The translations under genes and the position numbers were made by a program. Below the pieces are notes generated by a model. That model was not told the origin of the DNA. It saw only the letters and a list, made by a program, of their open reading frames with translations, and did no database searches. From a virus: DNA of 64,000 nucleotides. Location of the stretch: positions 186,001 through 250,000 of the IMG/VR virus record IMGVR_UViG_3300023174_000036; one strand, 5' to 3'. Positions 31,569 through 62,458 of the stretch are shown piece after piece. Numbering within the stretch: position 1 is the stretch's first letter; every line of letters begins with the position of its first letter.

Positions 31569-33617
31569 TTACACTTCGCTAGATTTTGACAGTGGAATGT
31601 CGGCACCACAAGTACATGATCTCTGTGTGCAAACTATTTCTTTTTTAAAATTAACCCAATTGATTTTTTCCCACTCGGCCATGGTTCCCCAAGACCTACC
31701 ACCTACTTGACAGTTTGCCTTGCGTATGTTGCCAGTCTGATGTATGAACATACTTTCTTTACCAATAGAACAGTTCCAGTTGTAAAATCTAGTTTGTCCT
31801 TTATTGATCAACGATTGATAACTATCCGCTCCTTTTACAACAGTGCCGTCTTTGTATGTTATCATTGGGCTCATATTTAGATTTTTAACAAAATAATTAG
31901 GAGAAGCTGTTCTTGGTTCTATAGTTTTAAAGTTTTCAAAAAATTTCAGCTGTTCTGGACTGTAGTTTATTACACAAAGTTTGTTGGCCTGCTGACCATA
32001 TTGTTCCTCAATCATAACAATGTCAATTCTCACATTGGTCTGTGTTTTTACTTTTTCAATGAATTCTATACAGTTGTCCCAATATAACGGATCCATCATA
32101 ACCCTCACCGTTGTTTTAGTAAACCTGCTGGAAACTTTTAATTTTTCAATAAATGCATCACTGGTTTGATTTTTGAATTCAAATGCAGGATGAAAGCTAC
32201 ATGATGCTTGTAACAAATATTTGAAATTTTCTTCAATAAATCGTTCAGTGCGAGATAAATTGGTAGTCAGCACAGTGTGATGACCGCGATCATATATCTC
32301 TTTAATCAACTGCGTGAAAAACGGACTCATGGTTGGTTCGCCGCCTGATATTGAAAAAATAATTTTTCTATCGTTTTCTGATAGCATGTCTATGGAGTGA
32401 GATATAAAAGGCTCCACTTGTTCCCAGCTGAGAGGATAATTTTTACCGTCATGCAATTCGCTTGGACAATATCTGCACGAGTAGTTACACACATCATTAA
32501 GGATCCAGGTCACTAATGAAAATTCGTTATTTTCAATTTTGACAATCTCCGTACCTTGTATGGGCGGCAACTGTTTCCAATAGGGTTGTCTTTTTTCCTT
32601 GTCCTCATATTCCTCGTAGGCTTGACTGGACGATATGATAGAATAATCAAATATTTCAGTAAATCTTGACAAATCAACTTTTAAAGAGTATTGACGATCT
32701 GACCATAACTCTTCTTTTTGTCTGCCATCCAAGGTTCCAATGGCATAGTATCCTTCTCTATTTTTAAAAAATTCGCCGTAACTAAAACCAAATTGCTCTG
32801 GATTTAATTTCTTCCAGCGATGGTGGTATAGTTTAAATCTTTCGGGTGTATTATCCGACGGAAACATGTGTATCAATATTTCGTTTGACCATGTGGTTTG
32901 TGGGGATATTAAATTTTTCTTTAAACTTTCTAAATCTTCATCGTGTATGATATGTTTGAGACTTTTGCCCAGAGTATTGTAACCCAGGCAAAAATCCCCA
33001 AAGTCTAGAAATGGCTTTAGGCAAAATAAATCTTCATCTTCCAATTCATAATTTGTTCGAGGATTATAACTTGCCACACAAACAAATTCTGACGCTTCTG
33101 TCCAGTCTTCTTTTAATGCAACTTCTGCTGAATGTATTAGGTCGTTGAGCAGTACAAATGCATTGTGCATGTCTTCGTTGAATGTTATGCCTGGCCAACG
33201 CTTTGCATAAGCATGAGTTTCATCGTACAGTTGATAAGCAGTATCCCACCATTTTTCTTTTAATTTTTCCTGATTTCGAACACCGTATATTGCATAGTTG
33301 TCGTGTAATTCGTTCAGTATATCTTGTGTTAATATAGTTATGGGATATCTTAATTTTAAATCATAAAAAGAATTTATTCTCTTGATAATGGTATTGAATT
33401 TTTTTATAAAATCTTCATCAATTTTAAAATTTTTATGATGTACTTTTCTTTCTCGAAAGCTGTAATCACTTTTTTTAAGTTTTTTTAATTCAGCTACCCA
33501 TTTGTGTGCAAGTGGTACATCAAACAAATTAAAATAAAGATCGTAGTTTTCCAAAGTCTTGGGATCAATCAAAGTGACTCGGACTGCGTCATTTATAAAT
33601 CGATTTGCATTACTCAT
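31569..33617 (-). CDS. Partner-domain/radical SAM fusion, type A
   Basis: This 682-residue protein has two parts. Residues of about 1-350 match a stand-alone protein encoded at 52291-53181: shared points include the NDLIHS / NDSIHS helix and FGDFCLGY / FGDLCMNY. Residues of about 365-682 are a radical-SAM enzyme with Cys376, Cys380 and Cys383 (VCNYSCRYCPSELHDG), a GGEPT SAM motif and a C-terminal cysteine set (NWNCSIG, KANCQVGG, CTQRSCTCGADI) for an auxiliary cluster. The arrangement is rare: in the other locus the same two units are separate, adjacent genes. The partner probably presents or recognises substrate, which is inference. Confidence 0.92.
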   Translation of the reverse strand: MSNANRFINDAVRVTLIDPKTLENYDLYFNLFDVPLAHKWVAELKKLKKSDYSFRERKVHHKNFKIDEDFIKKFNTIIKRINSFYDLKLRYPITILTQDILNELHDNYAIYGVRNQEKLKEKWWDTAYQLYDETHAYAKRWPGITFNEDMHNAFVLLNDLIHSAEVALKEDWTEASEFVCVASYNPRTNYELEDEDLFCLKPFLDFGDFCLGYNTLGKSLKHIIHDEDLESLKKNLISPQTTWSNEILIHMFPSDNTPERFKLYHHRWKKLNPEQFGFSYGEFFKNREGYYAIGTLDGRQKEELWSDRQYSLKVDLSRFTEIFDYSIISSSQAYEEYEDKEKRQPYWKQLPPIQGTEIVKIENNEFSLVTWILNDVCNYSCRYCPSELHDGKNYPLSWEQVEPFISHSIDMLSENDRKIIFSISGGEPTMSPFFTQLIKEIYDRGHHTVLTTNLSRTERFIEENFKYLLQASCSFHPAFEFKNQTSDAFIEKLKVSSRFTKTTVRVMMDPLYWDNCIEFIEKVKTQTNVRIDIVMIEEQYGQQANKLCVINYSPEQLKFFENFKTIEPRTASPNYFVKNLNMSPMITYKDGTVVKGADSYQSLINKGQTRFYNWNCSIGKESMFIHQTGNIRKANCQVGGRSWGTMAEWEKINWVNFKKEIVCTQRSCTCGADIPLSKSSEV

Positions 33618-49404: not shown

Positions 49405-49433
49405 ATTATATACTTATTTGTAAATACTGTCAA
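49405..49433 (-). promoter_or_regulatory. Perfect sigma70 promoter before the tRNA-like gene
   Basis: On the minus strand TTGACA (49433-49428) and TATAAT (49410-49405) are 17 bases apart and end 7 bases before the tRNA 5' end. It overlaps the start region of the plus-strand radical-SAM gene. Confidence 0.85.
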
Positions 49434-50404
49434 TGAGCTTTTCAACCATTCCTTTCCAAAATATTGTACGGTTTGGGCAACGCACAATGCTAGCCAAACC
49501 ATTGTTTTCTACCAGTTGGATTTTGGGTAGATTCTGTAACTATAATTGTAGTTACTGTTGGCCCTATGCTCGCAGTGACCGAATAGATCACCAACCACTT
49601 GAAGTGTATAAAGCCACGGTGGACGAGATTAAGCGTCAAGCACGAGCTAATGGATTCAACCAGTTTCATTGGTCGTTCAGTGGAGGTGAGCCTACTGCTT
49701 ACAAACAGTTGCTAGATCTAGTTAAACATTTGGATGAATTAGAATCCAAGTATCAAAGTATTCATATGACCACTAATTTGTCGCCTGGATCAAAATGGTG
49801 GAACACTTGGTGTCGGAATACTGAGATGTTACAACGTAGAAGTATCACTGCCAGTTTTCACGATGAGTTTGCTTGCGAACAAGAATTTGGCGACAAGTGT
49901 TTACAGTTGCAATACGAACTGGTACACGTTACAATCAATCAAGTAATGGTGCCCGAAAAATTTTACGAATTATATGATCGCATGGAGCGTTTTCATTCTC
50001 GCGGCATCAACGTTACATTGAAGCCTCAAAGCGATCCCACAGCGAGTGCGGTTGTTGACGGTTATACCAAAGATATGATGCATAAAATGCAAACAGGTTT
50101 CCCGCAACGTGCTAATGGTGAGGATGCTTATCAAATAGCATTATACGATGCTGACAACACCGAATACTTGTTTGACCAAGCAGAAAGATTTAATGCATTT
50201 GGATTTAACAAATTCACCAACTGGACTTGTAATGCCGGCTATCAAAGTGTTATAATAAGAGGTAATGAGGTTAAAAGAAGTTACAGTTGTCATGATGTGC
50301 CGTTAGGCACACTTGACAGCTTTGAATTATTCAAAGAACCCAAACGCTGTACTACTCCCAGTTGTGTTAGTAGTGCAGACTCAAAGATACCAAAATGCAA
50401 ATAA
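49433..50404 (+). CDS. Radical SAM protein, type A (first of plus cluster)
   Basis: This 323-residue enzyme has the cluster motif at Cys35, Cys39 and Cys42 (FCNYNCSYCWPYARSD), a GGEPT motif and, near the C-terminus, NWTCNAGYQSV, YSCHDV, and CTTPSCVSSADSKIPKC, a cysteine set for an auxiliary Fe-S cluster like SPASM proteins. It is similar to the type-A enzymes at 31569, 53178 and 59186. No Shine-Dalgarno site precedes the ATG at 49433, only TGTAAATAC and five bases; the ATG at 49487 is an alternative but also lacks a site. It overlaps the next gene by 10 bases. Confidence 0.9.
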   Translation: MSFSTIPFQNIVRFGQRTMLAKPLFSTSWILGRFCNYNCSYCWPYARSDRIDHQPLEVYKATVDEIKRQARANGFNQFHWSFSGGEPTAYKQLLDLVKHLDELESKYQSIHMTTNLSPGSKWWNTWCRNTEMLQRRSITASFHDEFACEQEFGDKCLQLQYELVHVTINQVMVPEKFYELYDRMERFHSRGINVTLKPQSDPTASAVVDGYTKDMMHKMQTGFPQRANGEDAYQIALYDADNTEYLFDQAERFNAFGFNKFTNWTCNAGYQSVIIRGNEVKRSYSCHDVPLGTLDSFELFKEPKRCTTPSCVSSADSKIPKCK

Positions 50405-51687
50405 CCTTTAGAGACTACGTAAAAACATTTCCCAAACTTGAAAAAGAGTTTGATAATGCCGCTATGTGTGCTATGAAGTGGATCTATCTGTATGTGCATT
50501 TAGGTGAAGGAGTTGTTAAAGGATGCCATAATGTTCCTCACAGATATGTTACTAGTGATGACATTGCCAAGTACGGTAAGGACTTATTTACTAACAGCGA
50601 ATATGAAATTAATACACGCCGAGAAAAATTAAACAACATAAAAAATCCAGAATGTCAAAGGTGTTGGAGTAGCGAATCAAAAAATGTTCGTAGTTGTAGA
50701 TTACCAGAACCTTACTATAAAATGCATAGGGATCGTTTTCCAGAAATCACCAATGATTTAACCCCTATGCCAACTATGATAGAAATTGCATTTAATAATA
50801 CCTGTGATTTAAAATGTATATATTGCAGTAGCACTTTTAGTTCTCAGTGGCAAACTGAAGATAAAAAATTTAACATTGTATCTAAACAACAAGCCGTTGC
50901 CCCAGAAGGATTTGAAGATATATTTTGGCAATGGTTAGAACAAGACGGTTCAAATACCCTACTACAATATTATATTTTGGGAGGCGAGCCCTTAATACAA
51001 CCGGAGTTCTATAATTTCATAGACAGGTTTATCCCTTTAATAAAAGCTAATCCAAATAAATTCAACGTTAAACCTGAATTAGTTATTCTTACCAATGGCA
51101 ATACACCTGAAAAATATTTAACTAAGTGGTTTGAAAAAATAAAAGAATTAAATGAAGTAGTGTCTATTCAATTTCATATCAGCATTGAAGGATACGGAAA
51201 CAAAGCAGAGTACATCAGAACTAATTTAGACTGGGATAGATTTTCCAGCAACGTGGATAAAATATTAGAATTTTCTAAATCAGGTGCAAGTGAAATTAGA
51301 TTCAGCATTACACATTCAGCTATGAGTATTACTAGTTGTTTAGACTTACTACAGTGGATAAAAAAATTATCGGATAAACACAGCATTGATGTAGATTTAA
51401 TTCGAACTAGTGTTGTTACTCCAGAACATCTTGCGCCTTGCATGTTAACTCCTAATTTTAATACCTACATAGATGAAGTGTGTTCATGGATAGAAACTGA
51501 TGCTCCCAAATGGAATCACTACATTGATTTTTTAAAAGGCATTGGTAATAGTTTTGGAAAACACTCTGTTGCCGATTTAAAAAAATTTACTGCATGGGAG
51601 CAAGATATGGTAAGCCGAAGAAATTTTAAAACTAAAGAAACATTCCCTGAGTTAGCTACATGGCTAGAGTATTGCAATGAAAATTGA
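50395..51687 (+). CDS. Radical SAM protein with N-terminal twitch domain, type C (diverged)
   Basis: This 430-residue protein has an N-terminal region with cysteines in VVKGCHNVP and NPECQRCWS, followed by the radical-SAM motif at Cys137, Cys141 and Cys144 (TCDLKCIYCSS) and ILGGEPL. The order is that of the N-terminal-twitch radical-SAM family, but the first twitch cysteines are less regular than in paralogues at 55133 and 33610. The last 130 residues are helical. It starts within the previous gene and overlaps the methyltransferase-like gene by 11 bases. The substrate is unknown. Confidence 0.88.
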   Translation: MQITFRDYVKTFPKLEKEFDNAAMCAMKWIYLYVHLGEGVVKGCHNVPHRYVTSDDIAKYGKDLFTNSEYEINTRREKLNNIKNPECQRCWSSESKNVRSCRLPEPYYKMHRDRFPEITNDLTPMPTMIEIAFNNTCDLKCIYCSSTFSSQWQTEDKKFNIVSKQQAVAPEGFEDIFWQWLEQDGSNTLLQYYILGGEPLIQPEFYNFIDRFIPLIKANPNKFNVKPELVILTNGNTPEKYLTKWFEKIKELNEVVSIQFHISIEGYGNKAEYIRTNLDWDRFSSNVDKILEFSKSGASEIRFSITHSAMSITSCLDLLQWIKKLSDKHSIDVDLIRTSVVTPEHLAPCMLTPNFNTYIDEVCSWIETDAPKWNHYIDFLKGIGNSFGKHSVADLKKFTAWEQDMVSRRNFKTKETFPELATWLEYCNEN

Positions 51688-52291
51688 TACCGAACACTTA
51701 CACTATTGGATGCAGGCTATTAGGCAAAGCCCAGACCCTATGCGGACTATGGATGCTTTTTGGTCAGGACAAATTAAAAGTAAAGAGTGGCTGATCAATT
51801 CGTTAGAGTTAGTTGTACATCCTCAAGTTGATTGTAAATTGCCCAAGCCTTTTTCTATAGACATTCACGGTGGGTGGGTTGGTGTTCTTGCTAGCATGAT
51901 ATTTCAAAGTAGGATACCGGTTGCTAATATTCGAAGTATTGATATAGACCCTACTTGTGAATCCATTGCCACAATGATGAACAAGGGTGAAGAAATAAAT
52001 GGCAAGTTCCGTGCAGTAACTTCAGACATGTGTGCTATACGAAGCGATGCAGATATTGTTATCAATACCAGTTGCGAACATATTACACAAGATCAGTATG
52101 ACTTGTGGAAAAGTGGAATGCCTCATAATAGTATACTTGTCTTACAAAGCAATAATTATAATATTCCCGAACATGTTCGCATTGCCAATAGTTTAGAAGA
52201 ATTTAAACAACAATGTGATATCAATGTACTATGGTCTGGAGAACTAGAATTACCTTTATACAAACGATGGATGATTATAGGAAAAGTATAA
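51677..52291 (+). CDS. SAM-dependent methyltransferase-like protein
   Basis: This 204-residue protein has a Rossmann-type pattern: FSIDIHGGWVGVLASMIFQS near residues 58-77 (motif I region), IRSIDIDPTCESIATMM near 85-101 (acidic end of strand two), AVTSDMCAI and VINTSCEHITQDQYDL. These fit class I methyltransferases; the SIDIDP Asp would hold the SAM ribose. Its target may be the product of the flanking radical-SAM enzymes. Its TAA overlaps the ATG of the partner-domain gene, so the two are coupled. Confidence 0.75.
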   Translation: MKIDTEHLHYWMQAIRQSPDPMRTMDAFWSGQIKSKEWLINSLELVVHPQVDCKLPKPFSIDIHGGWVGVLASMIFQSRIPVANIRSIDIDPTCESIATMMNKGEEINGKFRAVTSDMCAIRSDADIVINTSCEHITQDQYDLWKSGMPHNSILVLQSNNYNIPEHVRIANSLEEFKQQCDINVLWSGELELPLYKRWMIIGKV

Positions 52292-53181
52292 TGGAGTATG
52301 AAATTTACAACAACAAACCTGGAATTGAAATTGTATTTTCTAACGGCTTTGAAAATATTAGTTTGTTTTATGCAATTTATGATTGGCCAGCTGCCACTAA
52401 GTTTTACAAGTTGTTAACCGATGCTATCAATAATAAAAATTCATTTATAAGTGATACTAGTTTCAATGTATCTGAACACGATGAAGTTGTACTATTAAAC
52501 ACCATAAACGATACAGTTGATAAAATAAACAAAAAATACAAAATCAATATTCCTGTAATTACATCAGACTCAGATTTAAATTTATTGCATAGAGCAACTG
52601 TTCCTGTTAATTGTGAGTTGTGGAAAATTATTAATGACAGTATACATTCTTATGAACAATATAAGATTCAAATTAATAGTGAGCCACGTGTTAACGCATA
52701 TTTTAGATTTGAGCCTAGAAATTTAATCCCATTAAATAAAGAAGATTTTTTATTTTTTAAAGCTGACAGAGAGTTTGGCGACTTATGCATGAACTATACC
52801 CATAAGGGAAAACATTGGTTAGAATTACAATCCGATAACGATCCTGATAGTCTAACTGATGGTCAATTGCAAGCAGAAACACATTTAGAAGCAGGAGGCT
52901 ACTTGGTATTTAGACCCCCAAGTCCGAATCCTTTTTATCGTTTAAATAAATTTATACAATGGTTTAATAATGCATGTCCGGGAAAATCCGTAACATCCGA
53001 GATGGCCGTTGGATATTTGTTACTGGGTAAGATGGTGATGCCACAATCTTGGAATGGCTTCTACGTTCCGGAAAGATCTGATTGGGTTAGAAGGTTGTGC
53101 AATTATAAAACCATTATAGGTATAAATTTAATTACAATCAACGATGTACCGTCGTTATTAAAAAAATCTAAGATAATATGA
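52291..53181 (+). CDS. Stand-alone radical-SAM partner protein
   Basis: This 296-residue protein is homologous to residues of about 1-350 of the fusion protein at 31569-33617: LFYAIYDWPAATKF, IINDSIHSYEQY and REFGDLCMNYTHKGKHW match LYFNLFDVPLAHKW, LLNDLIHSAE and LDFGDFCLGYNTLGKSL there. No catalytic motif is seen. Here it is encoded directly before a type-A radical-SAM gene, with an ATGA overlap, whereas at the other locus both are one protein. The ATG at 52291 overlaps the upstream stop (TAATG) and has AGGA upstream. A substrate-binding or scaffolding role is inferred. Confidence 0.88.
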   Translation: MEYEIYNNKPGIEIVFSNGFENISLFYAIYDWPAATKFYKLLTDAINNKNSFISDTSFNVSEHDEVVLLNTINDTVDKINKKYKINIPVITSDSDLNLLHRATVPVNCELWKIINDSIHSYEQYKIQINSEPRVNAYFRFEPRNLIPLNKEDFLFFKADREFGDLCMNYTHKGKHWLELQSDNDPDSLTDGQLQAETHLEAGGYLVFRPPSPNPFYRLNKFIQWFNNACPGKSVTSEMAVGYLLLGKMVMPQSWNGFYVPERSDWVRRLCNYKTIIGINLITINDVPSLLKKSKII

Positions 53182-54185
53182 AACCAATTGCTATTGTTAA
53201 TTTTAATCATAACGACTATTTGTATATCACATGGTCGTTAACTTCTACTTGTAATTACGAATGCAATTATTGCTGGCCAAATGCTCACGATGGAAAACAT
53301 AGATTTCCTATAAATTTAGATTTAATTTGTAAGAATATAGAACATTTGATATCAACTTACAAAACTCACTTTAATAAAACAAATGTAAGATTGTCCTTAG
53401 CAGGCGGCGAGCCAACGTTGTGGCCCGAATTAGGAGAGTTCGTTAAACGCATACACGAATCTACCGGTTGTCGTGTTACACTTAATACTAACGGTTCACG
53501 AACTATACGGTGGTGGAAAGAGTATGCCAAATATTTTGACGATATACAGATTAGCGTACATCGAGAACAATGCGATGTTGCTCATGTTATAGAATTATTA
53601 GATTTGATATACAAAGAAACAGATGCGTTCTGTGCAGGCCGAGTATTGATGGATCCACTAGCGTGGGACGTTAGTATAGGTATGTTAAATCAATTAGTCA
53701 ATCATCCAACTCCTTGGCTTGTTAAAACTGTATTACTCACTGATCCGTTAACTGGTGAAGTAATGACAAATTATCAAAATGAACATTTTGATTTTATGAG
53801 AGACACTGTTAAAAAACGCCCGTCCGACGAATATGTAATGCGCATGAAAAATGCTGGTAAGATAGATGAGACTGATAAAAAAGAAGCAAAGGTAATATTT
53901 TCAAATGGTAACGAAGAACCTTATGATTCTTTCCGCTTAATGGAAAATGGTTGGAATAAATTTTATGGATGGGATTGCAATGTAGGTCTTGATCGTTTGG
54001 GAATTAATTATGCAGGCGAAGTAGAAGGCAACTGCGGCGAAAAGATTTTTAATACAAGTTTAAATATAAACGATCCTAATTTTATTTCTAAATTCAAACC
54101 CGAGTTAGTTGCTCCTATTAAATGTAAGAAGATATGGTGTGATTGTACATCTGATATAAGAATTACAAAACAGAAAAATGTATAA
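53178..54185 (+). CDS. Radical SAM protein, type A, coupled to partner protein
   Basis: This 335-residue enzyme has Cys25, Cys29 and Cys32 (TCNYECNYCWPNAHDGK), AGGEPTLWPEL, and a C-terminal cysteine set: YGWDCNVGLDRLGINYAGEV, EGNCGEK and CKKIWCDCTSDI. It is very similar in layout to the second half of the fusion protein at 31569. The radical-SAM core binds a [4Fe-4S] cluster and SAM, and the C-terminal set probably holds another cluster. It is coupled upstream by ATGA to the partner gene and overlaps the type-B gene downstream. Confidence 0.93.
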   Translation: MKPIAIVNFNHNDYLYITWSLTSTCNYECNYCWPNAHDGKHRFPINLDLICKNIEHLISTYKTHFNKTNVRLSLAGGEPTLWPELGEFVKRIHESTGCRVTLNTNGSRTIRWWKEYAKYFDDIQISVHREQCDVAHVIELLDLIYKETDAFCAGRVLMDPLAWDVSIGMLNQLVNHPTPWLVKTVLLTDPLTGEVMTNYQNEHFDFMRDTVKKRPSDEYVMRMKNAGKIDETDKKEAKVIFSNGNEEPYDSFRLMENGWNKFYGWDCNVGLDRLGINYAGEVEGNCGEKIFNTSLNINDPNFISKFKPELVAPIKCKKIWCDCTSDIRITKQKNV

Positions 54186-55149
54186 TTTACAAGATATCAA
54201 AGTTATTCATTTAGAAGTAACTAGCAAATGCCAAGCTAGTTGCCCAATGTGTGTACGTAATATCCGCGGCGGAGTAGACAGTCCTGATTTAAAAATTTCT
54301 GAAATTACTTTGGATCAATTTAAAAAATGGTTCTCTGTTGATTTTATAAAACAATTAGACAAAGTTTATATGTGCGGCAATACAGGAGATCCGATACTTG
54401 CTAAAGATACTTTGAGCATATTTGAATACTTACGTACAGTTAATACAGAATTAGAGCTTAGTATGAATACAAATGGCAGTGCCAGAGATATAAAATTTTG
54501 GCAAGGATTGGCGGAATTAAAAGTTGCAGTTAGATTTGGAATTGACGGCATGAATGATACTCATAGTCTTTATCGAATTGGTACAGATTGGAATAAGGTT
54601 ATACACAATGTACAAACTTTTATAAACAACGGTGGCTATGCAGTGTGGGACATGTTAATATTTGACCATAACAAACACCAAGTTGATGCCTGCGAACAAC
54701 TAAGTCGTAATCTTGGTTTTGCACAATTTGTAACAAAGAACACAAGTAGATTTCAAAATGATAATCTTACTGTGTTAAATAAAGACGGTACAATAAGTCA
54801 TATACTAAAACCTTCTATTAAGAGTAAACAGATTACTGAGAAGTTATCGGAGCAAGAATCTGTTATAACTTGTAAGGTAAAAACGCCTGGCAGTTTATAT
54901 GTTAGTGCCGAAGGAAAGATTGCTCCATGTTGCTGGTTGGATTTCAATGCTATTTCTAGCAATGCTCCTAGTCATGCAGATTTTATTAGCAAGGGTTTTA
55001 ATAATCCAAATTTGCATATACAAGATTTGAAACAAATATTTGACAACGACTTTTTTACAAGAATAGAACAATCTTGGACAAAAAACCCATTACGTGCTTG
55101 TAGTAGACAGTGCGGCAAGGTAGATAAATTTAATGAACAATTCAAATAA
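54178..55149 (+). CDS. Radical SAM protein, type B (CGxxGDP)
   Basis: This 323-residue enzyme has Cys18, Cys22 and Cys25 (KCQASCPMCVRNIRGG) and CGNTGDP in place of GGEP, as in its paralogue at 29244-30299. YVSAEGKIAPCCWLDF and a final RACSRQCGK give further cysteines for an auxiliary cluster. Shared stretches with the paralogue include VDFIKQL, FGIDGMNDTHSLYR and GGYAVWD. It overlaps both neighbours by 8 and 17 bases. The reaction is unknown. Confidence 0.92.
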   Translation: MYNLQDIKVIHLEVTSKCQASCPMCVRNIRGGVDSPDLKISEITLDQFKKWFSVDFIKQLDKVYMCGNTGDPILAKDTLSIFEYLRTVNTELELSMNTNGSARDIKFWQGLAELKVAVRFGIDGMNDTHSLYRIGTDWNKVIHNVQTFINNGGYAVWDMLIFDHNKHQVDACEQLSRNLGFAQFVTKNTSRFQNDNLTVLNKDGTISHILKPSIKSKQITEKLSEQESVITCKVKTPGSLYVSAEGKIAPCCWLDFNAISSNAPSHADFISKGFNNPNLHIQDLKQIFDNDFFTRIEQSWTKNPLRACSRQCGKVDKFNEQFK

Positions 55150-56443
55150 AACATTTTGTCCGCTACCGTTTATACACATTGCTACTCGTCCTAACGGCGA
55201 CGTTCGTGTATGCTGTACAGCCAACGCTAGTGGCGCAGGCATTATAGATATTAAGGACGCAGGCTTAGTTAAGGAAGGCACTGAAAATTTAAATCTTAAA
55301 ACTCACACTATTAGCCAAATATGGAACAGTCAGTATATGAAAAATATACGATTGGACATGCTGTCTAACAAAATTCCATCCAGCTGTGAAAAATGTTTTA
55401 AAGAAGAAACACAAGGAATTAAAAGTAAACGTAACTGGGAAACACAAGTATGGTCCGAGCGTTTAGATTTAAAATCAATTGTGGATCAGACAGCTGGAGA
55501 CGGATCTCTACCTGTTTCTATTCCCTACTTTGATTTACGATTGGGAAATCTTTGTCAGTTAAAATGCATTATGTGCAGTCCACACGATAGCAGTAGTTGG
55601 ATTAAGGATTGGAAGGTACAATTCCCAAAATATAAAATACAAGAATTAAAACAAGATCAAAGTTGGAATATAGATTTTGATTACACATGGTATCAAAAAG
55701 GATCTTTTTTAGAAGATATGCGTTCAAACGCATCCAATATTAGAGAGTTATATTTTGCAGGAGGCGAACCGTTGTTAATACCTGAACACTATAAGATTTT
55801 AGAGTTCATGGTAGAAACAGGAGCCGCAAAATTATGCGTTATACGTTATAATTCTAATGGTTTAGAATTGCCTGAAAAATTATTTGATTTGTGGAAATAT
55901 TTTAAAGAAGTTAAATTTAATTTTAGTGTGGATGCCGTAGGAGATCGTAATGACTATATTCGCTATCCTAGCAAGTGGAATAATGTTGTTGCAAATTTAG
56001 AAAGGTTAGATGATACCCCGGATAACATCACTGTAAACATAGCGTGTGCGGTGCAGTTGTTAAATATATTGTCTGTGACAGAGTTAGTACATTGGAAGGA
56101 AACTAAAAACTTTAAAAAAGTTAATAAGGCACCTTACGGCGCTGGATTAATTGGAACACATTTGGTATATCTTCCTAGCTATTTAAATGTAAGGGTACTA
56201 CCTAAACATCTAAAAGACCAAGTAGCGGCTCAAATTGATTATTTTTGTTTTAGACAATCGAGGAACATAGAATTCCAAGATAATCCTTACGGCCAACAAC
56301 GATGGCAAGGCCTAGTTCGATACATGATGGCAGAAGACTGGTCCAGCAAATTGCCAGTAACTGTTGAATATTTAGAGCAATGCGATCAACAGCGTGGAAC
56401 TGATTTTAGAACTATTTTTCCAGAATTGGGTGCAGTGCTATAG
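55133..56443 (+). CDS. Radical SAM protein with N-terminal twitch domain, type C
   Basis: This 436-residue protein shows the complete form of the family: N-terminal FCPLPFIHIATRPNGDVRVCC (residues 8-28 hold the twitch Cys), SSCEKCF near 85-91, then the radical-SAM motif at Cys141, Cys145 and Cys148 (LCQLKCIMCSPHDSSS) and AGGEPLLIPEHY. It is closest to the protein at 33610-34926 (AGGEPLLMPEHW, NTNAS versus NSNG). The twitch domain should bind an auxiliary cluster. Its last 32 bases overlap, end to end, a minus-strand tail-like gene. Confidence 0.93.
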   Translation: MNNSNKTFCPLPFIHIATRPNGDVRVCCTANASGAGIIDIKDAGLVKEGTENLNLKTHTISQIWNSQYMKNIRLDMLSNKIPSSCEKCFKEETQGIKSKRNWETQVWSERLDLKSIVDQTAGDGSLPVSIPYFDLRLGNLCQLKCIMCSPHDSSSWIKDWKVQFPKYKIQELKQDQSWNIDFDYTWYQKGSFLEDMRSNASNIRELYFAGGEPLLIPEHYKILEFMVETGAAKLCVIRYNSNGLELPEKLFDLWKYFKEVKFNFSVDAVGDRNDYIRYPSKWNNVVANLERLDDTPDNITVNIACAVQLLNILSVTELVHWKETKNFKKVNKAPYGAGLIGTHLVYLPSYLNVRVLPKHLKDQVAAQIDYFCFRQSRNIEFQDNPYGQQRWQGLVRYMMAEDWSSKLPVTVEYLEQCDQQRGTDFRTIFPELGAVL

Positions 56444-56999
56444 CATATTCAACACCGTCAAGAATTGCCTTTACAAATTTTGCTGGCCGATGCATTGCAT
56501 AAACTTCCTGGTCAGTTATGGTCAACTTCCCAGTTGTGATGTTACCGATTGTTGTTAAGTTACCAGCAGAGTCAACTTTTAATTTGATTTCCATTCCGGA
56601 ACTATTCGTTAACGCTAATAAAAACTCTGTTAGTACTGGCCCAGTTCCAGAATAATCTCCAGCTACTTTAAAGTGCAATCCGCCAGCCAACGGCGTTTCT
56701 TCTTGACAGTAGCCTAAACTATTCCCCGGAGAAGTCCTTGCATAAACTTGTAGTCCGCCTATCATATCGTCAGCACCAACTGGTAGCTTATTACTTTGGT
56801 CGCCTCTTGATTTGGTTAACCCTACGTACACTGGAGCACCGCCCACACCAGCATAGTCCAAGTAGAATAGCTGTTCGTTTTTTGATGTCCGTATGATTAC
56901 ATGGCCACTCTTGGTACTGTCACCAAATATCTCTTGTTTATCAAAATCTGATGGATCGATGTTGTCTGGTATTACCTTGTCAGAAATATTATAATTCAT
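56412..56999 (-). CDS. Tail-like structural protein of 195 residues
   Basis: This minus-strand gene stands between two plus-strand blocks. The product begins MNYNISDKVIPDNIDPSDFD, followed by a beta-rich part (GHVIIRTSKNEQLFYLDYAG, GGLQVYARTSPGNSLGY, GNLTTIGNITTGKLTITDQE) typical of phage fibre shafts, and ends in a compact AKFVKAILDGVEYAIALHPI. No signal or catalytic motif is seen. A TATAAATA late promoter lies 29 bases upstream, shared as an inverted repeat with the divergent neighbour. A small fibre or virion accessory protein is likely. Confidence 0.8.
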   Translation of the reverse strand: MNYNISDKVIPDNIDPSDFDKQEIFGDSTKSGHVIIRTSKNEQLFYLDYAGVGGAPVYVGLTKSRGDQSNKLPVGADDMIGGLQVYARTSPGNSLGYCQEETPLAGGLHFKVAGDYSGTGPVLTEFLLALTNSSGMEIKLKVDSAGNLTTIGNITTGKLTITDQEVYAMHRPAKFVKAILDGVEYAIALHPILEK

Positions 57000-58540: not shown

Positions 58541-59189
58541 CGAAGAATTTGAAAGGGCAATGTTATGGAACAGCTTAACAAATTTAGGAAGCTATGCTAA
58601 ACTGGATCTGAGAATAACTGAAACTGTTGTCACAAAAGATTTATTAAAGTTTTCTGAAAACTGGTGTCCTTACAATGAAAAAAAAGATGTACACAATAAT
58701 CGCTGGGGACTCCCAGTAACTAGTCATACTGGCGACGTCATGGATAATTACCATCTTAATAGTTTTGGTTATATGCAAAAATATCATGACGTAGAAATGA
58801 AGGAAGAAAACTTTACAACTCCTACGGATGTATATCATGCAATACCAGAAATTAAAAAACTAGTTGATGTGTTTGCTCCAGATATTGGCAGAGTTCATAT
58901 ACTAAAAGTAAATCAAGGCGGCTACTTTCCTCCCCACAGAGATTTTGCAGGAGTTGCGCCGGAGTATTTTCGACTGTCATGTGTTTTTGGAAGCTGTTCA
59001 GATTTTAATTACGTGCAAACATTACACGATCAAATTTTCAGGCCAGAACGCAGTCATTTATATTTTGTTAATTTTCAATTAAACCACAGCGTTTTTAGTT
59101 TTTCAGATAACTTATATAATCTAATCTTAACAGTTAAATTGAATCGTAGAACACATGATTTGGTTATCAAACATTCCATGTCAAAATGA
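58533..59189 (+). CDS. 2OG oxygenase-like protein (218 residues)
   Basis: This protein has IGRVHILKVNQGGYFPPHRD near residues 115-134 with an HxD pair, and YFVNFQLNHSVFSFSDNLYN near 175-195 with the distal His, followed by a LILTVKL strand. It fits the same hydroxylase-like fold as its upstream neighbour, but is more diverged. The N-terminal 90 residues are not recognised. Its stop overlaps the start of the type-A radical-SAM gene as ATGA, so they are coupled. Confidence 0.72.
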   Translation: MTNEEFERAMLWNSLTNLGSYAKLDLRITETVVTKDLLKFSENWCPYNEKKDVHNNRWGLPVTSHTGDVMDNYHLNSFGYMQKYHDVEMKEENFTTPTDVYHAIPEIKKLVDVFAPDIGRVHILKVNQGGYFPPHRDFAGVAPEYFRLSCVFGSCSDFNYVQTLHDQIFRPERSHLYFVNFQLNHSVFSFSDNLYNLILTVKLNRRTHDLVIKHSMSK

Positions 59190-60100
59190 AACTAGCTTAC
59201 GCCGATACTGCTAAAGAAAATTGGTTCCTAGTTGCATGGACGTTGTCAAACAAATGCAACTATCGCTGTAGCTATTGTCCTTCATATCTCAATGATGGTA
59301 GCACTGGACAACCTGATTGGCCGGTGGTTGAACAATTTGTAAACGGATTTGATATTCCTGGCAAAACAATTTGCTACAGGATAAGCGGCGGCGAACCCAC
59401 TTATTGGAAACATTTTTTAGACTTGGCTAAACTAGTTAAATCAAAAGGTCATCAGTTTACTTTCTTAACTAACGGTAGCCAAACAGTTGAGTATTATAAA
59501 GAAATTAGTAAATTTTCTGACGGTATCATGATTAGCTACCACGACGAGTATGCTGATATCGATCATATCATCGATGTTGCTAATGCTGTTGAATGCGTAG
59601 TAGTTGTTAATTTAATGATGGTACAAGACAAATTTGATCACATGGTTGGAATAGGTCAACAGTTGTATAAAGGAACTGACAAGTTGGCCATATGGCCCAA
59701 AGTAGTTTTAGATAAAACCAGCGGCGAGTTCGTAACTAACAAAGTAAGCGATTATACCGACGAACAAAAAGCCATCATAAAATCTTGGCCTTATTTTAGA
59801 AAAATTGATGATTCGAAAATACATAGAGGAGCTTTGTTACTTGATAATGTTCCAGTAACAGGAAACGACATTATAGTAAAAGGTCTAAACAATTACAAGG
59901 GCTGGGACTGCTGGGCAGGCGTAGACATGCTGAGTATCGACATGTGGGGTGATGTGTATCGAGCTGAATGTAAACAAGGCGGCAAGCTGGGTAATTTAGC
60001 TAATTACAATTTGCCAACTGAAACTATAACTTGTCCTGCTAACAAATGCAGTTGTCTTAGCGATATCTATCTTCAAAAAGAATCCAAAGTTACTATATAG
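59186..60100 (+). CDS. Radical SAM protein, type A
   Basis: This 304-residue enzyme has Cys24, Cys28 and Cys31 (KCNYRCSYCPSYLNDG), ISGGEPTYWKHF, and the C-terminal cysteine set of type A: KGWDCWAGVDMLSIDMWGDV, RAECKQGG and CPANKCSCLSDIYLQK. The close match of the last block to CGADIPLSK and CTSDIRITK in the paralogues shows a shared auxiliary-cluster site. It follows two oxygenase-like genes and a methyltransferase-like gene in one coupled block. Its last 28 bases overlap the convergent beta-propeller gene. Confidence 0.92.
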   Translation: MKLAYADTAKENWFLVAWTLSNKCNYRCSYCPSYLNDGSTGQPDWPVVEQFVNGFDIPGKTICYRISGGEPTYWKHFLDLAKLVKSKGHQFTFLTNGSQTVEYYKEISKFSDGIMISYHDEYADIDHIIDVANAVECVVVVNLMMVQDKFDHMVGIGQQLYKGTDKLAIWPKVVLDKTSGEFVTNKVSDYTDEQKAIIKSWPYFRKIDDSKIHRGALLLDNVPVTGNDIIVKGLNNYKGWDCWAGVDMLSIDMWGDVYRAECKQGGKLGNLANYNLPTETITCPANKCSCLSDIYLQKESKVTI

Positions 60101-61197
60101 CTTTCTTGGTCATTAAAGTTGTGTGCCATTGTCACAACACTGTTTTTATATATAATTGGCCTACCCAACAAATGATCAGCAAACATGTCCCTTGCTAATA
60201 TTTTGCCATGCTTGTTAATAGTTAGTATTGGACAACTGGGAGTTCCAGTGGGTAGGAACATGGCATTACCTCCATAAGCAACTCCTGATCTAAATCTATA
60301 TTTTCCGCCAAATGATAATCCTATATCAAATGTAGTATGCTTGCCGGTAACAATATTGTAAGTTAATCCCCATTGGCTATTGTTGGCATGCTCATCGCCG
60401 TAGGGCAAAGCTACAATTGTGTCGTCTACCAATACCCCAGCATTGTATTTCTTTGCAAAGTCAGGTATGTCTAATTCGTGAAGTTTGTAGGTGTTGGTAA
60501 TAGTATCAAACTCTATTAGTTCCGATACCCCGGACGTTTCGCCAAATGGTAGAATGTACAGTGTATTACCAGTTACAATTATATCCGAATACTTTCTTGT
60601 TACACTGGGATTTTTTACGTTGATTGGAAATGTTTTTATTTTGACGCCGTCAAAGCTGGTCATATTTATGTACCCAGCAGTATCTCCTCGAGGAGCACTC
60701 CAGTACCTACCATTCGCATGTACTGTGCCCATGTGTGTTTTAGTGTGTTCCTGCTTATCAAATTCTACAGTATGCACTGCATCGTCTTTGATGTATATTC
60801 CATAGCTGGTTTGTTCATATCCTAACGGAAAACTAAAAGCAGTGTTACCATCAGTTGCTGAACTGTAGAACTGACCTTTGCCTGGTTTATCAATATAATG
60901 GTATATTGGTTTAAAATCTTTTAATTGTACAACTACATTAAAATCATCCCATATGCCATAAGGTATGAACCATACACTGTCGCCCACGCTTGAAATGGCA
61001 TTGAATTTACTAGTGGCCGCAGGCAAGTCTAAATCTATAAACCAAGTCTTGTCTCCGTCTTTGCACATAACTTTGCTGTAGTTCTTGCATTGTTCTGTAG
61101 CAAAAGGCGGACTAACTAATATATTGTTATGATTGTGCAGTACCAAATGTTTAATTGGTTCTTCTTTGTAAAAATCCTCAAACGCTTTATACTTCAT
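60073..61197 (-). CDS. Beta-propeller protein 1
   Basis: This 374-residue protein is built of about seven beta-sheet repeats with a short PxG core: FIPYGIWD, SFPLGYEQ, SAPRGDTA, ILPFGETS, ALPYGDEH and FLPTGTPS, each followed some 10-15 residues later by a hydrophobic strand and an FDxxT-like turn. This is like kelch- or WD-type propellers. No signal peptide is seen. It is paralogous to the next gene. Such propellers bind ligands or proteins, and its place among modification genes suggests a binding or sensing part. It starts inside the end of the second propeller gene. Confidence 0.75.
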   Translation of the reverse strand: MKYKAFEDFYKEEPIKHLVLHNHNNILVSPPFATEQCKNYSKVMCKDGDKTWFIDLDLPAATSKFNAISSVGDSVWFIPYGIWDDFNVVVQLKDFKPIYHYIDKPGKGQFYSSATDGNTAFSFPLGYEQTSYGIYIKDDAVHTVEFDKQEHTKTHMGTVHANGRYWSAPRGDTAGYINMTSFDGVKIKTFPINVKNPSVTRKYSDIIVTGNTLYILPFGETSGVSELIEFDTITNTYKLHELDIPDFAKKYNAGVLVDDTIVALPYGDEHANNSQWGLTYNIVTGKHTTFDIGLSFGGKYRFRSGVAYGGNAMFLPTGTPSCPILTINKHGKILARDMFADHLLGRPIIYKNSVVTMAHNFNDQESYIVTLDSF

Positions 61198-62458
61198 TTA
61201 AGTTGATCTCTTTAATCACAGTTTCGCTAATGGTGTCAAATACCAGTACAGTGTGAAATGTTTCGCTTTGTCCGTAAGGAAAAGCAAATATTTTATCATC
61301 GATGATTACAGACGAGTTGAACTTTTCAATGGTTGTGTTATCTTTAAAATATTCGCTAATGTCTATAGTGTAGAATGAATCATTTGTTGTATCAACAACT
61401 AGTATATCAGCAAGATCGCCTTGTTGCTTCCAATTTTCTTCTGGTTCGCATACACATCCGCCACGCGGTATCCAGTATATCTTTCCTTGAGTATTTTCCC
61501 ACCCGGTAAAGTATTTTTTGCTTTCATATCCTACGCCGTCTACTGGAACTTGTTTCCATGTATCGTTGTTAGAATCAATTATCAACATTTTATTCCAACT
61601 ATCTTCATGGCCTGCTGGAGGGAAGTATGCTTTACCATTTTTAGATACTGCATGACTAAAGTATTTTCTTGAAGTGTCTTGCATACCTGTTTTTTCATAA
61701 GACCAACTAGTGCCATCGAATTTTAACATTATATCAAAATTATCATTTTCACTGTAAGGAGGTGCATACAACTTGTTTCCCACCTGCGCCATGGTTGTGT
61801 ATTTTTTATTAGTTATAATAGGAAACGGTTGCACATCATATTCTTTCCATGCGTGGGACATATCAGTTAATTCGTAATTAAACGTCTCGCAATCTAATTT
61901 TATTATGTAAGGGAAATACGGTTCAATGTAACGTTCTCCACGAGGTACTCCGTATATGAAATTATTAATTAGTTTACTAGTATGCCATTTCTTTTGGTCG
62001 TTGATTGGACAAACAATATTTTTTAAAAGTAATTCTTTAGTATATACATCAAATGAAATAGCAAAATCAAATTCTTTGTGTTCGCCGTATGGTAATGCTA
62101 TTACTTTATTTTTATATCTATGTGAAGCAATATATTTCCCCGGAGAATCGAACGGTAACTTAATCTGAGTTATTTCATCATTATCTGTATTAACAATTAA
62201 AATACTACATTCGTTGTATGGAAGAAATACTATAAAATTGTCTACTATAGTTCCGTACTGCCATTTTTCAAAACTTTCATCTGCTTCTAAATATATTTTT
62301 GTAACATCGAAAGTTACAGGATCAACCTTTATCATATAATCAATACGTTCTTTCAATCCGTACGGAGGTACATAGATCATGTTGTTTTTTCCTACCGTAG
62401 GAAAACTAAATGCTTGCGGGGTCAAATTTTTCTCCAAATGCAGATTTAAGGTCGGCAT
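61187..62458 (-). CDS. Beta-propeller protein 2
   Basis: This 423-residue protein has eight repeats marked by VPPYGLKE, FLPYNECS, ALPYGEHK, GVPRGERY, APPYSEND, FPPAGHED, WIPRGGCV and AFPYGQSE, evenly spaced at about 45-60 residues, with IxFD or KxD strands between. A beta-propeller is likely. It has the same PxG core as the adjacent gene, so the two arose by duplication. The start chosen overlaps the kinase-like gene by 53 bases, which is large; the ATG at 62380 would avoid overlap but would remove part of the first repeat. Confidence 0.75.
   Translation of the reverse strand: MPTLNLHLEKNLTPQAFSFPTVGKNNMIYVPPYGLKERIDYMIKVDPVTFDVTKIYLEADESFEKWQYGTIVDNFIVFLPYNECSILIVNTDNDEITQIKLPFDSPGKYIASHRYKNKVIALPYGEHKEFDFAISFDVYTKELLLKNIVCPINDQKKWHTSKLINNFIYGVPRGERYIEPYFPYIIKLDCETFNYELTDMSHAWKEYDVQPFPIITNKKYTTMAQVGNKLYAPPYSENDNFDIMLKFDGTSWSYEKTGMQDTSRKYFSHAVSKNGKAYFPPAGHEDSWNKMLIIDSNNDTWKQVPVDGVGYESKKYFTGWENTQGKIYWIPRGGCVCEPEENWKQQGDLADILVVDTTNDSFYTIDISEYFKDNTTIEKFNSSVIIDDKIFAFPYGQSETFHTVLVFDTISETVIKEINLNEV

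Follow-up and report, generated by a model that had tools for sequence, protein, structure and literature searches.

The region studied here raises the question of whether a 296-residue protein, encoded within an island of radical-SAM genes, acts together with one of these enzymes, which of them would be its mate, and what kind of subunit it would be. The window (the whole 64,000-base stretch of DNA that was analysed) corresponds to bases 186001-250000 of a virus record of 356,312 bases. Because the terminase of this record shares 53% identity with those of PA5oct-like Pseudomonas jumbo phages and 50% with that of Sinorhizobium phage Phosso, we take the record to be that of a jumbo tailed phage. 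The stand-alone partner gene (52291-53181, plus strand; identified by its open reading frame and translation, its family and its model) starts with the ATG at 52291 and stops with the TGA at 53179-53181, and the ATG of the following radical-SAM gene (53178-53180) overlaps this stop in an ATGA (53178-53181, plus strand). The adjacency and coupling of these two genes, as reported in the first-pass annotation, are therefore correct in the reading frames and in the sequence itself. At the other end, the stop of a 204-aa gene (51677-52291, plus strand) overlaps the partner start in a TAATG (52289-52293); this preceding gene is methyltransferase-like by eye, is kept in many related islands and has no family match in Pfam and PHROG scans. 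A longer form of the partner could begin at an alternative ATG at 52231, but its homologs in the alignment start at about 52291.

The gene directly 3' of the partner encodes a type-A radical-SAM protein of 335 aa (53178-54185; Pfam Radical_SAM, E 3e-14, and tree position). The same plus-strand island comprises a further type-A enzyme carrying WILGRFCNYNCSYCWPYARS (49433-50404; Pfam E 2.5e-12), an N_Twi radical-SAM protein of 430 aa (50395-51687; NCBIfam NF033640, 223 bits for a cut-off of 170), a radical-SAM protein of 323 aa with a C-terminal SPASM region (54178-55149; Pfam), a second N_Twi protein of 436 aa (55133-56443; NF033640, 410 bits) and a YCP-type type-A enzyme of 304 aa (59186-60100; Pfam E 5e-11, tree and co-occurrence). 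The islands also carry N_Twi proteins above the cut-off, an Asp/Asn hydroxylase-like oxygenase (Pfam) and a probable methyltransferase, judged by eye. Several other features of the region deserve a mention in their own right. A minus-strand gene of 195 aa (56412-56999), tail-fibre-like by eye, sits within the plus-strand island and is kept in three related loci (L003, L004, L005). Two minus-strand repeat-like genes, beta-propeller-like by eye, are found at 60073-61197 and 61187-62458, and their relatives come after the radical-SAM island in L019, L023, L056, L195, L203, L204 and L207. Between 3110 and 24344, several large proteins, among them reading frames of 3290 and 1515 aa, have a common N-terminal motif of the type NDGTGDxLRxAFxKxNxNF and are tail-fibre-like by eye.

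The minus strand of the window also encodes a 682-aa protein (31569-33617) in which a partner domain (about residues 1-345; 32583-33617, minus strand, delimited by profile alignment and model) is followed by a type-A radical-SAM domain (31572-32558, minus strand; motif CNYSCRYCPSELHDG; Pfam E 9e-9 for the whole protein, and BLAST similarity to the 53178 product). Its 682 codons are uninterrupted and the linker has no in-frame ATG. Another phage encodes an orthologous fusion of 663 aa (L215, identical in L216), with the partner domain at residues 8-320 and the type-A radical-SAM domain at 339-661, which is collinear with the fusion of the window at 41% identity over 677 residues. This ortholog makes a local frameshift or an assembly artefact an unfavoured origin of the fusion, and the two fusions are most simply explained by one fusion event retained in two lineages. 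The proposal that both units lie in one chain, in the same order, is thus borne out by the open frame and by its ortholog.

Several approaches demonstrate that the stand-alone partner and the N-terminal half of the fusion are homologous. In a single comparison, BLASTP aligned them at 28% identity over 116 aa (E 1e-6). A search of the 356-kb genome with the partner returned itself and the fusion only (E 1e-5), and a profile built from the partner and the N-terminal half of the fusion found the same two proteins only in the whole genome; among the loci fetched by radical-SAM similarity, this profile also picked out the family on additional divergent contigs. For the radical-SAM halves, the fusion and the 53178 product align at 29% identity over 345 aa (BLAST, E 6e-31). 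When IMG/VR was scanned, the family profile that resulted yielded 127 relatives, of which 80 were kept, and the 52291 subfamily yielded 31 loci; about 50 non-redundant proteins make up this profile family, which includes the N-terminal half of the fusion. The stand-alone partner (pLDDT 87, pTM 0.82) and the N-terminal half of the fusion (pLDDT 77, pTM 0.78), both modelled with AlphaFold2, share one succession of strands and helices, namely two strands, a helix, a strand, a block of long helices, alternating strands and helices and a final long strand, and the two models are not fully independent because their input alignments have most rows in common. The fusion model covers the N-terminal half, and full-length alignments that placed partner rows on the radical-SAM half were discarded. 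All nine viral-structure matches of the fusion model (E 2e-8 or better) are within the ten of the partner model, with nothing else close. By profile similarity, topology and invariant residues, the N-terminal half of the fusion is a member of the partner family. The homology first suggested by the shared points NDxIHS and FGDxCxxY is therefore upheld by BLAST, profiles and models: these points are subfamily forms of family motifs with residues invariant in 48 sequences, the profile comparison chosen in advance as a test found similarity between the two N-terminal regions, and the predicted folds agree.

The partner is an undescribed protein family that is essentially phage-only. The stand-alone protein has no Pfam, PHROG or NCBIfam match beyond chance, six relatives scanned with Pfam and PHROG gave nothing beyond chance, and tblastn of the partner against cultivated phage records found no match. 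We found no mention of the family in the open-licence papers searched, and the main text of an overview of jumbo phages does not contain the term "radical SAM" (PMC7824862). Two peptide patterns searched in prokaryote species genomes returned a single match, a fragment at a contig edge in a Bacteroidetes MAG (L179:1-873), which we rejected as a cellular member because it runs into unrelated sequence and probably belongs to a chimeric contig. Separately, a 768-aa protein of an uncultured phage (BFVD A0A6J5T9P3) contains a stretch with the partner fold and could be one more fusion.

To avoid circularity, the association between the partner and radical-SAM genes was counted only in loci fetched by partner similarity (L099-L178). 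In these loci, a type-A radical-SAM gene lies directly downstream on the same strand for 47 of the 49 distinct partners. With a stricter gene call, 46 of 49 partners stand directly before a type-A radical-SAM gene, whereas 28 of the 173 other non-radical-SAM genes of the same loci do so (Fisher p 2e-24, a value that is only indicative because the sequences are related). Across a wider locus set the two frames overlap, usually by 13 bases. The downstream mates have the common signature WN[LIM]GKRCNxDCxYCPxxIHD, and of 76 partner loci, 64 contain a YCP-type enzyme, most of the others being truncated stretches. Together with the orthologous fusion in another phage and the same gene order in two cultivated phages (see below), this adjacency backs the earlier claim that the two act together, and it is very likely, on these genomic patterns, that the partner and its type of phage radical-SAM enzyme work together. 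A partner paralog of 322 aa (L180:1393-2361, on the contig of L077) is found away from the type-A radical-SAM gene, among other kinds of genes. About 20 radical-SAM enzymes of the paired clade and of neighbouring clades have no partner beside them, an absence that is provisional because contigs are fragments; most of these enzymes are directly behind an N_Twi-like radical-SAM gene. When 21 contigs with such enzymes were searched with a profile, just one proved to carry the partner, at a different site on that contig. We rejected the idea of an undetected partner upstream of them, as the upstream genes are mostly N_Twi-like radical-SAM genes with no homology to the partner. Since these paired-clade enzymes lack it locally, the partner appears to be accessory and not obligatory.

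Which of the enzymes in the island is the mate is a separate matter. The fusion, 53178 and 59186 all belong to the Radical SAM superfamily, with PF04055 scores of 36.1, 54.0 and 43.5 bits for a cut-off of 29.5. Among relatives, the three radical-SAM cysteines are 100% conserved and five C-terminal cysteines are 89-98% conserved; these five would be consistent with one auxiliary cluster, and the Pfam SPASM profile matches neither 53178 nor the fusion. A FastTree phylogeny of 118 type-A proteins separates into two halves (support 0.90), one with 53178-like enzymes, mostly YC[WF]P, and the other with the fused enzymes, the paired GKRC clade and the 59186-like and 49433-like enzymes; relations within this second, YCP half are poorly supported. 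The ATGA coupling of 52291 and 53178 is kept in close relatives. Across the 52291 subfamily the arrangement varies: the partner lies before 53178 in the window and its close relatives, after a 53178-like gene in L193 and divergently in L204 and L207, and the immediate neighbour in several islands is a radical-SAM gene of another kind. In L195 and L203 it sits between a SPASM-type and an N_Twi radical-SAM gene, and on these whole contigs of 23-25 kb the partner is kept, a 59186-like gene is present and a 53178-like gene was not found. In L019 and L023 the partner comes directly after a 59186-like gene, and the gene before the 53178-like one encodes a different protein, about 355 aa long. In terms of motifs, the usual mate of the partner is a radical-SAM enzyme with a YCPxx[IL]H[DN]-like motif, and 59186 is the enzyme of that type in this island. 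From the two halves of the tree, the varied arrangements and these four loci, we infer that 53178 is probably a paralog encoded in the same island rather than the split version of the fused enzyme, and that the mate of the stand-alone partner is most likely 59186, as co-occurrence would suggest.

As for the role of the partner, eight residues (H100, N115, H119, E122, Y169, G173, K174 and G241) are invariant in 48 partner sequences less than 80% identical, and both fusions, in the window and in L215, retain all eight. Invariant polar sets are found more typically at ligand or active sites than in pure adaptors, and the eight residues suggest a putative site of that kind; for this reason the label of substrate-binding domain is disfavoured, though possible. 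The partner model has no significant match among PDB structures. Among its weak fold matches in the PDB, cyclophilins occur most often, with a probability of 0.41 at most, E values of 0.7 or worse and a target TM of about 0.5; in the viral library, cyclophilin-type matches reach a Foldseek probability of 0.51 at most. Cyclophilins do not recur among the top structure matches of the model of the fusion's N-terminal half, and hhalign of the partner against PF00160 and PF18050 sequences gave probabilities of 0.1-0.2, so we assign no fold to the partner; the resemblance to cyclophilins is a weak structural hint with no profile similarity. Matches of the partner profile in a PDB sequence search were likewise rejected as chance helical matches.

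Comparison with known systems helps to place these observations. The RRE is a small winged-helix domain, and radical-SAM partner domains that only bind substrate exist, as in PqqD with PqqE. As in PqqE with PqqD and in RRE-containing RiPP maturases, the present system has a radical-SAM enzyme with C-terminal cysteines of putative auxiliary-cluster type and a partner unit placed before it, coupled or fused. In contrast to RiPP maturase systems, no precursor peptide was found in the window, and unlike an RRE the partner has about 270-300 aa, a mixed barrel-and-helix topology, invariant polar residues and no structural match. In line with this 300-residue mixed topology, no RRE structure is among the PDB matches listed for the partner and no RRE or PqqD-like domain was matched in Pfam or NCBIfam. 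NF033640 (N_Twi_rSAM) includes neighbouring genes within these islands, whereas 53178 and the fusion, at 31.0 and 18.1 bits, fall below its cut-off of 170. The best PHROG is 13987 (radical SAM domain-containing protein), for both 53178 (E 5e-17) and the radical-SAM half of the fusion (E 4e-10); it covers the radical-SAM half only, and the partner half has no PHROG match. Phage genomes with many radical-SAM genes have been noted previously (PMC7150976), and T4-like marine phage contigs are described as rich in them, with 12 in one 183-kb phage genome (PMC5332604). The passage concerned gives these enzymes as iron-sulfur proteins and, within that passage, mentions no partner family (PMC5332604).

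A structure search extended the fold to cultivated jumbo phages, pointing to the Atu_ph07 protein A0A2L0UZJ4, a homolog that tblastn had missed. In Atu_ph07 the profile search gave a weak match (118058-118552, E 0.04) inside AUZ94948.1, and hhalign of the Atu_ph07 and Phosso homologs against the partner family gave a probability of 95% (E 2e-8). As in the window, the partner-fold protein lies directly upstream of a radical-SAM gene, AUZ94948.1 before AUZ94947.1 in Atu_ph07 and XYS97442.1 before XYS97441.1 in Phosso; both homologs are annotated "hypothetical protein" within a radical-SAM operon. Unlike in the partner family, the invariant residues are not kept and the mate is of another, SPASM-like type, which implies that the fold and its pairing with radical-SAM enzymes are broader than the invariant site. 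This operon is near a gene whose product is a virion structural protein about 4,500 aa long (AUZ94962.1, XYS97451.1), a position that suggests modification of a virion protein. We also observed phage proteins of about 170-310 aa with a strict C-terminal C-H-x-S tail, for example CHSSCHGSRGRR (L188:13119-14009, AUZ94952.1; L245:5856-6776, XYS97446.1; L246-L318). The motif lies in the last 40 residues of 45 reading frames, and 41 of these have a radical-SAM reading frame in the fetched stretch, usually directly adjoining, which makes these proteins candidate radical-SAM substrates. Three of them have no NCBIfam match, and no literal mention of the motif was found in the open-licence papers searched. 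They were rejected as the substrate here, being absent from this window's genome, and no partner-fold gene was found upstream of the corresponding radical-SAM gene in other C-H-x-S loci.

Based on our results, we favour, with a probability of roughly 0.55, the reading that the partner belongs to a phage two-component radical-SAM system, either as an accessory subunit or as a second enzyme that is tightly coupled, as the genomic evidence would have it. Partner and enzyme would form one catalytic unit, in which the radical-SAM enzyme would generate the 5'-deoxyadenosyl radical at its CxxxCxxC cluster, its C-terminal cysteines would hold an auxiliary cluster, and the site of the partner (His, Asn, His, Glu, Tyr, Lys) would bind or chemically handle the same substrate or intermediate. 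The normal mate would be the YCPxx[IL]H[DN]-type enzyme, that is the fused enzyme and, for the stand-alone partner, most likely 59186; plausible substrates would be a small metabolite or a component of the virion or of a surface. The invariant polar residues, which resemble an active or ligand site, also suit a partner that is an independent enzyme, catalysing a step before or after the radical-SAM reaction, with overlap and fusion serving equal expression or channelling and no stable complex being formed. The occurrence of paired-clade enzymes without the partner, and of the 52291 subfamily beside differing radical-SAM types, point the same way; yet near-constant adjacency to one radical-SAM subtype and a conserved fusion exceed ordinary operon membership, and we consider this account possible but somewhat doubtful.

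The first-pass annotation leads instead to a non-catalytic substrate-binding subunit whose split mate would be 53178. The direct ATGA coupling, retained in close relatives, and the precedent of PqqD speak for it, but 53178 falls in the half of the tree opposite the fused enzyme, L195 and L203 keep the partner with no 53178-like gene, no known recognition fold or domain was matched, and the invariant H, N, H, E, Y and K are no less compatible with a ligand or catalytic site, so that this version, in both its parts, now seems improbable. That the adjacency is a by-product of radical-SAM islands moving as blocks, with no functional tie, would agree with islands that are mosaic and with neighbours that differ among relatives; it is very hard to reconcile with an in-frame fusion that is conserved, with an adjacency far more frequent than for other genes in these loci and with the same order beside another radical-SAM subfamily in two cultivated phages. 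Returning to the two-component system that we favour, a bolder and speculative extension is that the partner could be a new class of radical-SAM subunit, with its own fold and a conserved ligand or active site, which together with a YCP-type enzyme would constitute a phage-specific two-component enzyme; in aquatic jumbo phages, this enzyme would introduce a novel modification into a metabolite or into a component of the virion or of a surface.

In conclusion, the notion that the two proteins act together, which began with one fusion, is now supported by a pattern seen across the family. The partner and its radical-SAM enzyme represent a definite pair for co-expression and purification, with conserved residues to mutate, and the homologs in Atu_ph07 and Phosso provide a genetic entry that uncultivated phages do not offer. 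In the islands of many radical-SAM genes carried by large aquatic phages, the partner family would mark which radical-SAM genes form a unit.
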